A DNA stretch of 64,000 bases from Promethearchaeota archaeon (lineage in GTDB: Archaea > Asgardarchaeota > Lokiarchaeia > Sigyniarchaeales > SOKP01): contig JAUWGH010000001.1 of assembly GCA_030606485.1 (NCBI GenBank), positions 806,001 to 870,000 on the forward strand. The letters are read 5' to 3'. A model generated the notes under the pieces. It ran no database searches, was not told the origin of the DNA, and was given only the letters and a program-made list of their open reading frames with translations. Every line of letters starts with the position of its first letter. The first letter of the stretch is position 1. The position numbers and the translations under genes were made by a program. This document shows positions 56,284 through 63,883 of this stretch, piece after piece.

Positions 56284-56288
56284 GGTGA
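56284..56288 (+). promoter_or_regulatory. Shine-Dalgarno GGTGA placed for an ATA start
   Basis: GGTGA at 56284-56288 is followed by exactly six bases and then ATA at 56295. The GTG at 56313 has only an A/T run upstream. The TGA inside this site also closes the frame, so translation must begin after it. Confidence 0.6.
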
Positions 56289-56294
56289 CTTTTA

Positions 56295-56792
56295 ATAAAA
56301 AAAATTAAAAAAGTGTTATTTTTATGTTATGGAAATTCTTGTAGGTCTCCTGCAGCAGAATATCTAGCAAAAGGTTTAGCAAAAAATAAATATGAAAAGG
56401 ATTTGTTTGATGTGGAATTTGTATCTGCTGGTCTTATTAATGTTTTTGGATATGCTCAGCCAGAAACAGTCAAATTTGCTAAATCTAGAGGAATAAATAT
56501 GTCAAACTTCATACCACAACTAATTGATTATTATCTTCTAGAATTAAATGATTTAATTTTAACTATGGAACAAATACAAGTGAATAAAATCCTTCAACAT
56601 TTTCCGAAAATTCCAAATCTAAAAGCGAAAGTTTTTACCCTAAAATCATTTGCAGGTGAAACTAAAGATGTTGATATCCCAGATCCTTATATGACAACTG
56701 ACGAATATTATAATAAGATATTAGAGGAAATTGAGAAATCCGTAGAATTGAGCATAAAAAGAATAATCGAATTAAATAAAAACCAAACTTGA
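56295..56792 (+). CDS. Low-molecular-weight phosphotyrosine phosphatase / arsenate reductase family
   Basis: 165 residues from ATA 56295; 159 from GTG 56313. The catalytic P-loop C-Y-G-N-S-C-R-S-P and the late D-I-P-D-P with the general-acid Asp are present, with the DLILTM strand between. LMW-PTP-fold proteins dephosphorylate phosphotyrosine or reduce arsenate. The usual N-terminus of the family is a few residues, some basic, before VLFVC; reading from the ATA gives MKKIKKVLFLC, which fits, whereas the GTG start would remove the basic part and trim the first strand. It is a single gene with a long upstream region. Confidence 0.83.
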   Translation: MKKIKKVLFLCYGNSCRSPAAEYLAKGLAKNKYEKDLFDVEFVSAGLINVFGYAQPETVKFAKSRGINMSNFIPQLIDYYLLELNDLILTMEQIQVNKILQHFPKIPNLKAKVFTLKSFAGETKDVDIPDPYMTTDEYYNKILEEIEKSVELSIKRIIELNKNQT

Positions 56793-58898: not shown

Positions 58899-58904
58899 GG
58901 GTGA
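58899..58904 (+). promoter_or_regulatory. Shine-Dalgarno GGGTGA placed for an ATA start
   Basis: GGGTGA at 58899-58904, then six bases, then ATA at 58911: the same geometry as for the phosphatase gene at 56295. The TGA of the site is in frame with the gene, so the start must be after it. Confidence 0.6.
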
Positions 58905-58910
58905 ACAAAA

Positions 58911-61172
58911 ATATCAACTAAAACTAATAGTGAAATTAAAAAGATTAAGGCTGAAAAAAAGCTAAAGGAATCTAAAATAAAAAAGGAAAAAAAGAAATCT
59001 AAAATAAAAAACGAGAAACAAAAAGATACTTCAGAAATAGAGAAAAAAGAACACTCTTTAAGGGCCATTGCATTAGATACTGGCGGAACAATGAGTGATT
59101 CTTTTGTAATTGACGAAGATGGAACATTTATAATAGGAAAAGCAATTACTACTCCAGAGGATGAATCTGAGGGGATATTAAATTCCGTAAAGGATGCTTT
59201 AAACTACTGGGATAAGACTTTAGAAGACTCAGGGGGATCTGTAGAAGCTTTAGTATATTCTGGAACAACAATGATAAATAGGCTTTTAGAGAGAAAGGGA
59301 AACAGTAATATTGGAATTATAGTTAATGCAGGTTTTGAGGATCTCCACAGATTAGGAAGAGCATTACAATGCTGGATATGGCTCGACTATGCAGGGCGTC
59401 TCCACGCGAGGGAACATGAACACCCCAAACCACTAGTACCAAGGAAACAGATTAAAGGTGTTCGCGGAAGAATTAATTTTTGGGGGGAAGAACTAATTCC
59501 ACTTTATAAGGATGAGGCAAGAGTAGCAGTAGAAGAATTACTTGATATGGGTGTTGAAAGTATTTGTGTATGCTTACTTTGTTCCTATATGAATCCGGCT
59601 CATGAAAAACGTGTGAAAAGGATTGCAGAACGGATAATGAAGGAAAAAGGTAAAAAAATTCCAATAATATTATCTTGTGAACATAATCCGGTTAGAGGTG
59701 AAACTCCTAGATTAAATGCTCTTATCATTGAACAATATGCTGCAGAACCATCAAGAAAATTGTTAGCTAAAATTGCCGAAACTTTTAAAGAAAAACAAGT
59801 TCCCGCGCCTCTTAGAATCTTAACAACTTATGGAGGAACAATTTCACCGTATCACAAACAACTCATCACAACCCTAGTATCAGGTCCTATCGGTGGAATA
59901 ATAGGTAGTAAATTCATAGCCAAGGAATATGGAATAAAGAACTTAGTATCCTCAGATGTAGGGGGTACCAGTTTCGATGTAGGTCTTATAATGGAAAATT
60001 ATGTTCCTACCAAATGGGAGAGTTCTGTTGGAAAATTCATTTTAAACATACCCATGATAGGTTTAAACTCTATAGGTGCAGGTACGGGCATGTATGTGAG
60101 ATATAATAAAGTTTCAGGAAGATTAGAATTTGGACCTGAAAGTGCAGGGTATCGTATCGGAGTATGTAATGAGGCATCTGGAGTTGAAACAGTCACAATG
60201 ACGGATTGTAGTTTAATTTTGGGATATCTCAATCCAGACTATTTTCTCGGAGGAAATATTCCATTAGACAAGAAGCGAGCATATAAATATATCAAAGAAC
60301 AGTTGGCAGACCCTTTTGGTGTGGATCCGGAAAGAACTGCACGAGGTGCACTTGATTTAATAGAGATTAACATGAAAAATCATCTTAATGGAATGATTCA
60401 AGGTCTTGGTTTCAGACCAGAGAACTATACACTCATCTCCTTCGGAGGAGCTGGGCCACTTCATGTGGCAGGATATGCTAAGGAGTTAAAGTTTCAAAAT
60501 ATTATGATACCAGAATGGGCAGCTGCGTTCTCAGCGTATGGTTGTGCATGTGCCGATCATTCTTACAGACATGAAAAGTCTGTGGATTTATTGGTATCTC
60601 CTGATGGGAGCATGAATGAAATTGTATCTATGATGCTCAACGCTACGTGGAGTGAATTAAAAAAGAATATAATAAAAGAGTTTGAAAAAGAGGATAGAGA
60701 TCCTAGTGAAATGGAATTTATTCCCTCAATTCGAATACAATATTTTGGCATGTTTGATGATTTAGAAGTAAAGAGTTCATCTGATAATCTTAAAGCCGAA
60801 GATGTGTGGAAACTGGCAAGAAGTTATGATGATCTTTTCGAACAAATATTTCGAAGAGGTACAAAAAGCCCAGATCTTGGATATCATATAACCAAGGCGG
60901 TGGCAACAGGGATTGTCCCAGTTCCTAAGCCAAAATTACCAGATTATAAGTTGAGTGGGAAGGATCCGGACAAAGGAGCAAATAAAGGAAAGAGAAAAAT
61001 ATTCTGGGAAGCTGATTGGCATAATGCTTCACTTTGGGAGATGAGTTTACTTAATCCTGGAAATTTAATAGATGGTCCCGCAGTTATCGAGGCTCCGGCA
61101 ACCACTTTACTGGTTCCACCAGGTTTTAAAGTTTTTCTTGATAAACATAGAATTTTTCATATGGAGGTGTAA
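58911..61172 (+). CDS. acxA: Acetone carboxylase beta subunit (HyuA family)
   Basis: 753 residues from ATA 58911. A Lys/Glu-rich N-terminal extension (about 1-50) precedes the ASKHA ATPase fold. The first phosphate motif LDTGGTMSDSFVID lies across ATG 59091, so that ATG cannot be the start. Later features match AcxA closely: YSGTTMINRLLERKG, the middle HEHPKPLVPRKQIKGV, VSGPIGGIIGSKF, SDVGGTSFDV, FGPESAGYRIGVCNE and SFGGAGPLHVAGYA. The subunit phosphorylates acetone/bicarbonate with ATP in the alpha2beta2gamma2 enzyme that makes acetoacetate. GGAGGTG at its end serves the next gene. Other HyuA-type carboxylases are less likely given the gamma subunit. Confidence 0.88.
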   Translation: MSTKTNSEIKKIKAEKKLKESKIKKEKKKSKIKNEKQKDTSEIEKKEHSLRAIALDTGGTMSDSFVIDEDGTFIIGKAITTPEDESEGILNSVKDALNYWDKTLEDSGGSVEALVYSGTTMINRLLERKGNSNIGIIVNAGFEDLHRLGRALQCWIWLDYAGRLHAREHEHPKPLVPRKQIKGVRGRINFWGEELIPLYKDEARVAVEELLDMGVESICVCLLCSYMNPAHEKRVKRIAERIMKEKGKKIPIILSCEHNPVRGETPRLNALIIEQYAAEPSRKLLAKIAETFKEKQVPAPLRILTTYGGTISPYHKQLITTLVSGPIGGIIGSKFIAKEYGIKNLVSSDVGGTSFDVGLIMENYVPTKWESSVGKFILNIPMIGLNSIGAGTGMYVRYNKVSGRLEFGPESAGYRIGVCNEASGVETVTMTDCSLILGYLNPDYFLGGNIPLDKKRAYKYIKEQLADPFGVDPERTARGALDLIEINMKNHLNGMIQGLGFRPENYTLISFGGAGPLHVAGYAKELKFQNIMIPEWAAAFSAYGCACADHSYRHEKSVDLLVSPDGSMNEIVSMMLNATWSELKKNIIKEFEKEDRDPSEMEFIPSIRIQYFGMFDDLEVKSSSDNLKAEDVWKLARSYDDLFEQIFRRGTKSPDLGYHITKAVATGIVPVPKPKLPDYKLSGKDPDKGANKGKRKIFWEADWHNASLWEMSLLNPGNLIDGPAVIEAPATTLLVPPGFKVFLDKHRIFHMEV

Positions 61173-61176
61173 AGAA

Positions 61177-63393
61177 ATGAATAATAAACCAATTGGATGG
61201 AATGGAAAAACACTTATGAAAATGCTTGAAGAAAGCGAGAAATATATAAAGGAAACAAAATCATATTATGGAATAGATAAATTAAAGTTAAAGGAAGAAG
61301 ACCCTTTTAAATATGAACGAGCATTTGCAAGTCTTAGAGGTGCATTAGTTTCTGCAAGAGAAACTGCATTACATGTTGCCGCTTCACCTATTGTTAAAGA
61401 AATTGGTGAGCTCTGCTTTGCTTTATATACTCCAGAAGGTGATTCTATTGTCGTTTCGACTGGTATCTTGGTTCATGTCCATACAATGAGCGAAGCCGTA
61501 AAATTTATGGTAAAACAGGATTATGAACAAGACCCTGGAATCAACCTAGGTGATATTTTTCTAAATAACGACCCCGAATGCGGAAATGTGCATACAACAG
61601 ATGTTCAGACTCTAATCCCAATATTCTGGAAGGAAGAATTGATTGGCTGGGCGGGAGGTGTAACTCATCAAATCGATTCTGGAGGTATTACTCCTGGTCA
61701 TGATTTAGTTTCAGCTATTCAACGTTTTGATGATGGAACCTATTATACTTGTAGAAAGATTGGCTCAAACGATAAGATCTGGAAAGACCACATGATAAAT
61801 GCTCGAAGATCAGTTAGAACTCCATTTTATTGGGAGTTAGACGAAAAATGCAGATTAGCGGGAGATTTGATGATTCGAGATGCAGTTCTAGAGTTTATAG
61901 AGAGAGAAGGAATTGAATATTATAAACAATTTATAAGAGAGGTAATAGAGGAGGGAAGAAGGATATTTCAAGAACGTGTGAAAGAGCGATTGATTCCTGG
62001 AAGATATAGAGCTGCAGCCTTCTTTGATATACCTATGAAGGAAGAAGCCTGGCAACCTAGAGCAAAAATTGATAAGATCAGCAATCAACCATTAGAAATT
62101 ATTATTAAAAATGATGGATCAATGTTTCTTTCTTTTGATGGAGCAAGTGGTCCCGGACCAAATCCTATGAATTGTGCAAAAGGAGCAATGGAAGGAGGCC
62201 AGTGGGTTCTTTTGACCCAAGTCTTAATATACGGTGATAAAGTTAATGATGGGGCGTATTTTGCTGTAGATACGGATTATCCAATTGGGACATGGTGTAA
62301 TCCAGGGGATTCTTCTCTTTCTTATCAGAGTCCTTGGGGTAACTTGATTCCTGCCTACACAGGTATGATGAAATGTCTATCTTATGGATTATATTCCCGT
62401 GGATATAGAGAAGAAATCGTTCCGGGGTATGGATTTACAGGAGATGCAATTCAAGGTGGAGGTATTTATTCAGCTGGTCCACTTAAAGGGCAAAGGTGGT
62501 CATTATCAACATTTGAGATTAGCGGTCAAGGGTTAGGAGCGAGTGGCGTAAAAGACGGACTGGATTGGGGGTATGCAATGTGGAATCCAGAGGCTGACCT
62601 TGGAGATGTTGAAACATGGGAACTATTTCAAGGAGGAATTCCTTATTTATCAAGAAGAGTTAAACCAAATACCGCAGGTCATGGAAAATACCGGGGTGGA
62701 GCGAATTATGAAGGAGTGGCAATGATTGCAAATTCGAAAGAAGTGGATTTTTTTGGAGCTAGGGATGGTTATTGTTTTCATGGTTCTGGTGGTATGCACG
62801 GGGGTTATCCTCATGCAACTGGATATCGACTTTATGCTAAAAAGACAAATCTACAAGAGATTATTCAAAATCAAAAAGAATATCCATTAGGAGATCCAGA
62901 CCCTAGCAATGGTGAATTTGAGAAATTACTAGAGGGAGATATTGTGAGAAAGAAGAACTGCACAATCTATCCTATCATCTTGGAGAATAACGATATGATT
63001 TATTATGCATTAAGTGGGGGTCCAGGATACGGTGATCCTCTAGAGAGAAAGGTGGAGAGTGTAAAACAAGACCTTAATAATGGAATTTACACAAATGATT
63101 TAGTCTATAATATTTATGGTGTAGTAGCAGAATATAATGAAGAAATGGGAGAGTGGGTAATCGACAAAATGGGCACAGACGTACGTCGAGAAGAAATTAG
63201 AGCGGAACGAAAAGATAAATCCTTGACATTTGATGATTATTGGGAACAAGAACGGTGGAAAATTACAGAAGATATGCTGAGTGAACCGGTAAAACGAATG
63301 TATTCAGAGAGTTTAAGATTATCTACAAAATGGAGAAAGGAATTCCTAGAATTTTGGAGATTACCCGAGGATTTCCAACTGGAGGTGAAATAA
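61177..63393 (+). CDS. acxB: Acetone carboxylase alpha subunit (HyuB family)
   Basis: 738 residues from ATG 61177, with GGAGGTG seven bases upstream; the frame extends back to 61072 in overlap with the beta gene but without a ribosome site. HyuB-family signatures are GDIFLNNDPECGNVHTTDVQ, GWAGGVTHQIDSGGITPG with metal-binding His and Asp, FDGASGPGPNPMN, and a late GHGKYRGGANYEG. This subunit holds the manganese site and joins carboxyphosphate to the enol. It begins five bases after the beta stop, so the two are tightly coupled. Confidence 0.9.
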   Translation: MNNKPIGWNGKTLMKMLEESEKYIKETKSYYGIDKLKLKEEDPFKYERAFASLRGALVSARETALHVAASPIVKEIGELCFALYTPEGDSIVVSTGILVHVHTMSEAVKFMVKQDYEQDPGINLGDIFLNNDPECGNVHTTDVQTLIPIFWKEELIGWAGGVTHQIDSGGITPGHDLVSAIQRFDDGTYYTCRKIGSNDKIWKDHMINARRSVRTPFYWELDEKCRLAGDLMIRDAVLEFIEREGIEYYKQFIREVIEEGRRIFQERVKERLIPGRYRAAAFFDIPMKEEAWQPRAKIDKISNQPLEIIIKNDGSMFLSFDGASGPGPNPMNCAKGAMEGGQWVLLTQVLIYGDKVNDGAYFAVDTDYPIGTWCNPGDSSLSYQSPWGNLIPAYTGMMKCLSYGLYSRGYREEIVPGYGFTGDAIQGGGIYSAGPLKGQRWSLSTFEISGQGLGASGVKDGLDWGYAMWNPEADLGDVETWELFQGGIPYLSRRVKPNTAGHGKYRGGANYEGVAMIANSKEVDFFGARDGYCFHGSGGMHGGYPHATGYRLYAKKTNLQEIIQNQKEYPLGDPDPSNGEFEKLLEGDIVRKKNCTIYPIILENNDMIYYALSGGPGYGDPLERKVESVKQDLNNGIYTNDLVYNIYGVVAEYNEEMGEWVIDKMGTDVRREEIRAERKDKSLTFDDYWEQERWKITEDMLSEPVKRMYSESLRLSTKWRKEFLEFWRLPEDFQLEVK

Positions 63394-63394
63394 A

Positions 63395-63883
63395 ATGGTA
63401 AAATATGATAAAAAGACACTTAAAAGAATGATTGATGGGGATTTAACTTGGGAAGAATTAAAACCAATAATAAGTGGTACAAAGGATCCTGATAGATTTG
63501 ATAAAATTATTGAAATTTTACAAGAAAAAGTCTCTTGGGACGAAAAAATCATCTTACCAATTCATGAACATTTACATATTGTTTCAAAGGATGGAAAGAG
63601 AATAGTAAAATGTGATTGTGGATATGAGTTTGGAGATTATAAAGAGAACTGGAAGAAAAAATGCAGAATAAGAGTGAGAGATACAGCTGAAGAGCTTGAA
63701 GAATTTTATCCAAAATATATGTCTTGTGACCCAGATTGGGAGGAACTTAGAGAATATTTCTGTCCTGGTTGTTTTACACTGCTAGATACGGAAGCTGTAC
63801 CTCCAGGATATCCAACTATTTTCAATTTTCTGCCCGACATAGATGCATTCTACAAAGAGTGGCTTGGAAGAAAGGCTCCATAA
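63395..63883 (+). CDS. acxC: Acetone carboxylase gamma subunit
   Basis: 162-residue protein matching the small zinc-binding gamma subunit. The cysteine pattern is C-D-C (KCDCGYEFGDY), later a Cys before DPDWEEL, and F-C-P-G-C, consistent with a zinc ribbon. The C-terminus (PDIDAFYKEWLGRK) is typical of AcxC. GGAGGTG precedes the ATG. The presence of this third gene distinguishes acetone carboxylase from hydantoinases and acetophenone carboxylase. Confidence 0.9.
   Translation: MVKYDKKTLKRMIDGDLTWEELKPIISGTKDPDRFDKIIEILQEKVSWDEKIILPIHEHLHIVSKDGKRIVKCDCGYEFGDYKENWKKKCRIRVRDTAEELEEFYPKYMSCDPDWEELREYFCPGCFTLLDTEAVPPGYPTIFNFLPDIDAFYKEWLGRKAP

Follow-up and report, generated by a model that had tools for sequence, protein, structure and literature searches.

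The acetone-carboxylase-type gene of a Promethearchaeota archaeon (Lokiarchaeia; assembly GCA_030606485.1) confronts us with a simple question: at which codon does its translation begin? The gene lies in a window of 64,000 nucleotides, which is the whole stretch of DNA analysed and the one to which bare coordinates refer.

Results

A reading frame without a canonical start ahead of its motif

The frame is bounded by an in-frame stop, TGA 58902-58904, which is itself the end of the Shine-Dalgarno (SD) motif GGGTGA, and a scan of the open frame from this TGA to ATG 59091 returned no in-frame ATG, GTG or TTG. ATG 59091 is the first canonical in-frame start and directly follows the phosphate-binding motif LDTGGT, so that a protein begun there would lose the motif. 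The first-pass annotation had therefore placed the start at ATA 58911, behind GGGTGA and six further bases, and this arrangement is borne out by the sequence (Table 1). The spacer at 58905-58910 reads ACAAAA; the annotation was right to count a run of five As here but misplaced it, since the run occupies 58907-58911, its last A being the first base of ATA. A stop codon this close upstream follows from the geometry, as the TGA of GGTGA falls in frame whenever the spacer counts six bases.

Two sister genomes carry the same 21 bases around this ATA, GGGTGAACAAAAATATCAACT, although the three genus genomes differ from one another at 13-19% of the gene's four-fold sites. In these three genomes the hydantoinase A domain is preceded by an N-terminal stretch rich in lysine, about 45 residues long (58911-59045), which relatives in other genera lack. 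As this stretch is genus-specific, no homologue of the acetone-carboxylase-type gene aligns an ATG with ATA 58911, and the case for this codon is built on the SD, the geometry and the conservation. Taken with the wider comparisons below, they lead us to regard ATA 58911 as a real start codon, used through SD-assisted initiation, with a probability of roughly 0.86.

The gene is followed by the other subunits expected of its family. The mechanical reading frame of the hydantoinase B type gene opens at ATG 61072, inside the preceding gene (61072-61176); a sister genome has AAG at this position, for which reason ATG 61177 is the likely start. The ATG of the gamma-type gene is preceded by GGAGGTGA, also at six-base spacing. 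The subunits of an acetone/acetophenone carboxylase-type enzyme (hydantoinase A type, hydantoinase B type and Acetone_carb_G) are present, the B type by a match below its cut-off, and the name "acetone carboxylase type" for 58911-61172 appears sound in view of its Hydant_A domains and the Acetone_carb_G gene downstream. The curated equivalog cut-off was missed (376 bits against 1500 for ApcC) and other NCBIfam models scored lower; because the NCBIfam matches stay below their cut-offs, we assign no specific substrate.

Table 1. Coordinates of the genes and initiation signals discussed in the text
Feature	Position	Strand	Remarks
SD GGTGA, phosphatase gene	56284-56288	+	kept in four genus genomes
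Putative ATA start codon, phosphatase gene	56295-56297	+	kept in 4/4 genus genomes
Low molecular weight phosphatase, 165 aa	56295-56792	+	Pfam LMWPc (PF01451), E 3.9e-25
SD GGGTGA	58899-58904	+	identical in two sister genomes; matches own 16S 3' end
Putative ATA start codon, acetone-carboxylase-type gene	58911-58913	+	six bases past GGTGA
Acetone-carboxylase-type subunit, hydantoinase A type, 753 aa	58911-61172	+	Pfam Hydant_A_N, Hydantoinase_A, Hydant_A_C
LDTGGT phosphate-binding motif	59073-59090	+	kept in relatives compared
Hydantoinase B type subunit, ATG start	61177-63393	+	NCBIfam acetophenone carboxylase delta, E 1.5e-44, below cut-off
Acetone carboxylase gamma-type gene, ATG start	63395-63883	+	Pfam Acetone_carb_G, E 3.9e-42
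Initiator tRNA gene	C6:44352-44448		CAU anticodon and GGG:CCC stem; one found, further copies possible
aIF1 gene	C6:14493-14708		

The same geometry in a phosphatase gene and in other families

The first-pass annotation had also noticed that a phosphatase gene shares the SD, the six-base spacing and the ATA, and this parallel holds: the two ATA codons lie 2616 bases apart and the spacer of the phosphatase gene is CTTTTA. Apart from one changed base in the spacer, GGTGA-N6-ATA is kept in all four genus genomes, even in one whose protein is just 70% identical. Outside the genus, homologous stretches carry ATG (21 stretches) or TTG (7 stretches) at the codon aligned gap-free with this ATA, and none of them has GGTGA ahead of it.

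A longin-like gene (C10:298157; its score against Fuz_longin_1 falls just under the cut-off) shows GGTGA-N6-ATA in six of six genus sequences, the most divergent at 71% DNA identity, its second codon alternating between ATA, ATT and ATC, while the homologues in other genera of the family have ATG and no GGTGA (12 of the 12 shown). In the ISINW family the frame begins with ATT or ATA behind an SD, and with ATG in paralogues devoid of GGTGA. The codon concerned, one of AUA, AUU and AUC (hereafter AUH), thus aligns with the start codon of homologues in the phosphatase, longin-like and ISINW families. The exchange may even be caught between close relatives: in one gene, with an ORF of 893 codons and the next canonical start 19 codons downstream, GGTGAAATAAAAA is followed by ATG in this genome, whereas a sister species at 96% identity has ATA behind the same GGTGAAATAAAAA. 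The gene of the electron-transfer flavoprotein alpha subunit keeps its ATA in four genomes. Judged by sequence comparison, the start position of the phosphatase and longin-like genes, their SD, its favoured spacing, the conservation within the genus and the exchange between AUG and AUA can be considered established; AUA and AUU would serve as starts in this genus, and probably AUC as well.

Some further loci deserve mention. The ISINW/MSINW proteins are small and coiled-coil-like (C10:169941 and C2:152021, both on the minus strand), and their paralogues, which start with ATT, ATA or ATG, offer useful material for studying start-codon exchange. At C10:380539, a gene that looks E2/UBC-like by eye has an apparent ATT start behind AAGGTG, kept in two sister genomes. 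The frame at C8:382094, by eye an SMC/Rad50-like ATPase, opens with ATT TCG ACA AAA ACA, and its first residues, ISTKT, are those of the acetone-carboxylase-type gene.

Ribosome and initiator tRNA

The 16S rRNA of this genome ends in GGATCACCTCCT, a normal anti-SD, and GGUGA can consequently pair with UCACC. SDs are uncommon here: at least five matching bases precede first ATGs in 15% of cases, TTGs in 10% and GTGs in 8%, compared with 2% inside genes, in line with the scarcity of SD motifs reported for Lokiarchaea (PMC7531240, PMC12993045). ARAGORN missed most tRNAs, probably owing to introns, and the Rfam model was used instead; introns seem to interrupt many tRNA genes of this genome, and in that of the initiator tRNA the intron follows the anticodon.

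Genome-wide occurrence

The genome comprises 3.75 Mb in 13 contigs, from which 2.06 Mb were read and 1837 ORFs taken; named relatives are for the most part Lokiarchaeota/Lokiarchaeia assemblies. The excess of SD-spaced ATA codons anticipated by the first-pass annotation is seen at ORF starts but disappears when GGTGA-N6-ATA is simply tallied over the whole genome (103 matches, compared with 114 of the reversed pattern), because few of these matches are gene starts. Among ORFs opened by GG|TGA, 10 of 25 have ATA, ATT or ATC at codon 3, compared with 39 of 360 in other TGA contexts (P=3.4e-4); for ATA alone the figures are 6/25 and 13/360 (TGA without GG; P=6e-4). Seven other codon positions behind GG|TGA gave no comparable AUH excess. 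ATG is raised at codon 3 too (10/25 against 79/360), as expected for a start position. Two members of this count are doubtful, one ATA standing directly before an ATG and one ATC having an ATG eight codons on.

A second set was assembled blind to the SD and consists of 71 ORFs in which coding potential sets in ahead of any canonical start. Of the 134 AUH codons in this set, 14 have an in-register SD of at least five bases before them, as have 9 of the 862 other codons (odds ratio 11, P=9.5e-8). The spacing is six in 12 of the 14, and only one of 500 shuffled motifs reached 14. All these P values treat genes as independent, although the AUH genes include at least one paralogous pair, and more than one of several tests made was reported. 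A census of the codons that follow SD-like motifs close to ORF starts, filtered by coding potential, scarcely separated ATA (7) from the reversed motif (6) and was replaced by these two matched tests. Few SD-preceded AUH cases occur in 384 kb of a sister genome; the comparison with other genera draws on single gene families and on some 420 kb of mixed loci, the latter with two SD-preceded AUH codons and six other codons, no clear signal. By an uncurated estimate made by eye, the 2.06 Mb hold about 20 plausible AUH starts, probably some 1% of genes.

Discussion

How AUH codons may be used as starts

The simplest reading is that SD pairing keeps an AUH codon in the P site until an ordinary initiator tRNA is accepted. 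GGUGA of the mRNA would pair with UCACC at the 16S 3' end and so put AUA, six bases downstream, in the P site, where the CAU anticodon would pair with the first two bases and a third-base mismatch would be tolerated. The usual initiator tRNA would thereby read AUH and presumably insert methionine, probably less efficiently than at AUG. The same device would serve a small set of genes of this Lokiarchaeal genus, which would start at AUA, AUU and probably AUC; most genes start at AUG, UUG or GUG with no clear SD. It is tempting to go further and to suppose that the third position is relaxed under control of the SD, GGUGA six bases upstream making a start of any AUN, a generalization that we hold tentatively and at rather less than even odds.

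Alternative explanations

Since homopolymer runs are prone to error, one may ask whether an extra A in the A5 run hides a real start at GTG 58901, which would then enter the frame, as the first-pass annotation had allowed. This is extremely improbable: three separately assembled genomes of the genus share exactly these bases, and the ATA geometry recurs in genes devoid of such a run, among them the phosphatase, whose site is kept in four genomes and whose ATA aligns with ATG in homologues from other genera. We consider it very improbable, too, that ATA is an internal isoleucine codon, reached from an upstream start by readthrough of TGA as selenocysteine or another residue, or from the GTG within GGTGA by a frameshift. 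UGA recoding as selenocysteine has been reported in Lokiarchaeia (PMC9723677), and the interchange of ATA, ATT and ATC, which isoleucine codons would display as well, would by itself also fit such an internal position. However, upstream of the TGA neither window gene has a canonical start before the next stop is reached, the spacers vary among genes so that no common slippery site emerges, and homologues place their ATG precisely at the ATA. Editing of AUA to AUI was rejected as a candidate, as it would not explain AUU and AUC starts.

The remaining alternatives concern why AUH is accepted or kept. An altered initiation apparatus in the genus (initiator tRNA modification, aIF1, aIF1A or aIF2) might accept AUH generally, the SD being a mere accompaniment, which would suit a genus that uses AUH where other genera have ATG. 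We judge this unlikely, given that an SD stands before those AUH starts that homologues support, whereas most genes lack one, and that the initiator tRNA found looks normal, even if intron-bearing tRNA genes may have been missed. That AUH starts are kept as a deliberate brake, for low or responsive expression as in bacterial infC and ccpN, is compatible with SD-assisted initiation and differs from it on the reason for which AUH persists. The retention of ATA and SD in the longin-like and phosphatase genes over marked divergence speaks for such a brake, as does the fact that AUA and AUU starts cut yield and respond to the medium in Staphylococcus aureus (PMC13009471). Yet a carboxylase, a phosphatase, a flavoprotein, a kinase and a glycosyltransferase have no obvious regulatory theme in common, and the drift of starts among ATA, ATT and ATG resembles tolerance more than a tuned brake, making this explanation somewhat unlikely.

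Relation to known systems

SD-assisted initiation at AUA and AUU, as we propose it here, has bacterial counterparts. Escherichia coli infC begins with AUU. The same start is attributed to E. coli pcnB in a reference cited in PMC13009471, and both resemble the genus in combining an AUU start with an SD and a normal initiator tRNA; they are, however, few, regulated and bacterial, while nothing seen in the genus points to regulation. In S. aureus, infC, ccpN and citZ start with AUA and cvfC1 with AUU, and AUA or AUU starts with an extended SD retain roughly 10-30% of AUG activity (PMC13009471); by analogy, a similar dampening may affect the AUH starts of the genus. The S. aureus system relies on a bacterial ribosome with IF3 and on extended SD motifs in a handful of genes, whereas the genus is archaeal, has factors of the aIF1/aIF2 type and shows a short GGTGA at mostly fixed spacing, in a genome where the SD is otherwise uncommon and in what we estimate to be tens of genes. 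With canonical archaeal initiation the genus shares SD-anti-SD pairing and an initiator tRNA with CAU; the start codons named in a review of archaeal mRNAs are AUG, GUG and UUG, and the SD is described there as not prevalent in a Lokiarchaeote (PMC7531240). Our search of the open-licence literature found no report of AUA or AUU starts with an SD in archaea or Asgards. This absence is weak evidence, because only open-licence papers were covered and because a 2017 survey accepts annotated AUA, AUU and AUC starts in prokaryotes including archaea (PMC5397173); SD-assisted AUA/AUU initiation is known from bacteria, and the archaeal case is apparently unreported.

For annotation, the practical consequence is that gene finders limited to ATG, GTG and TTG truncate or misplace such proteins, and in the acetone-carboxylase-type gene the truncation would delete the catalytic motif. 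The several gene families compared indicate that, given an SD, ribosomes of archaea can start at AUA and AUU. Were the relaxed third position to hold true, an AUG could mutate to AUA or AUU and the gene would not be lost; these archaea, whose initiation factors resemble those of eukaryotes, would then possess a natural class of genes that begin at codons other than AUG. Asgard archaea are the closest known prokaryotic relatives of eukaryotes, and these genes may offer a natural test of how start codons are discriminated in Asgard archaea by factors of the aIF1/aIF2 type, which are homologous to those of eukaryotes.
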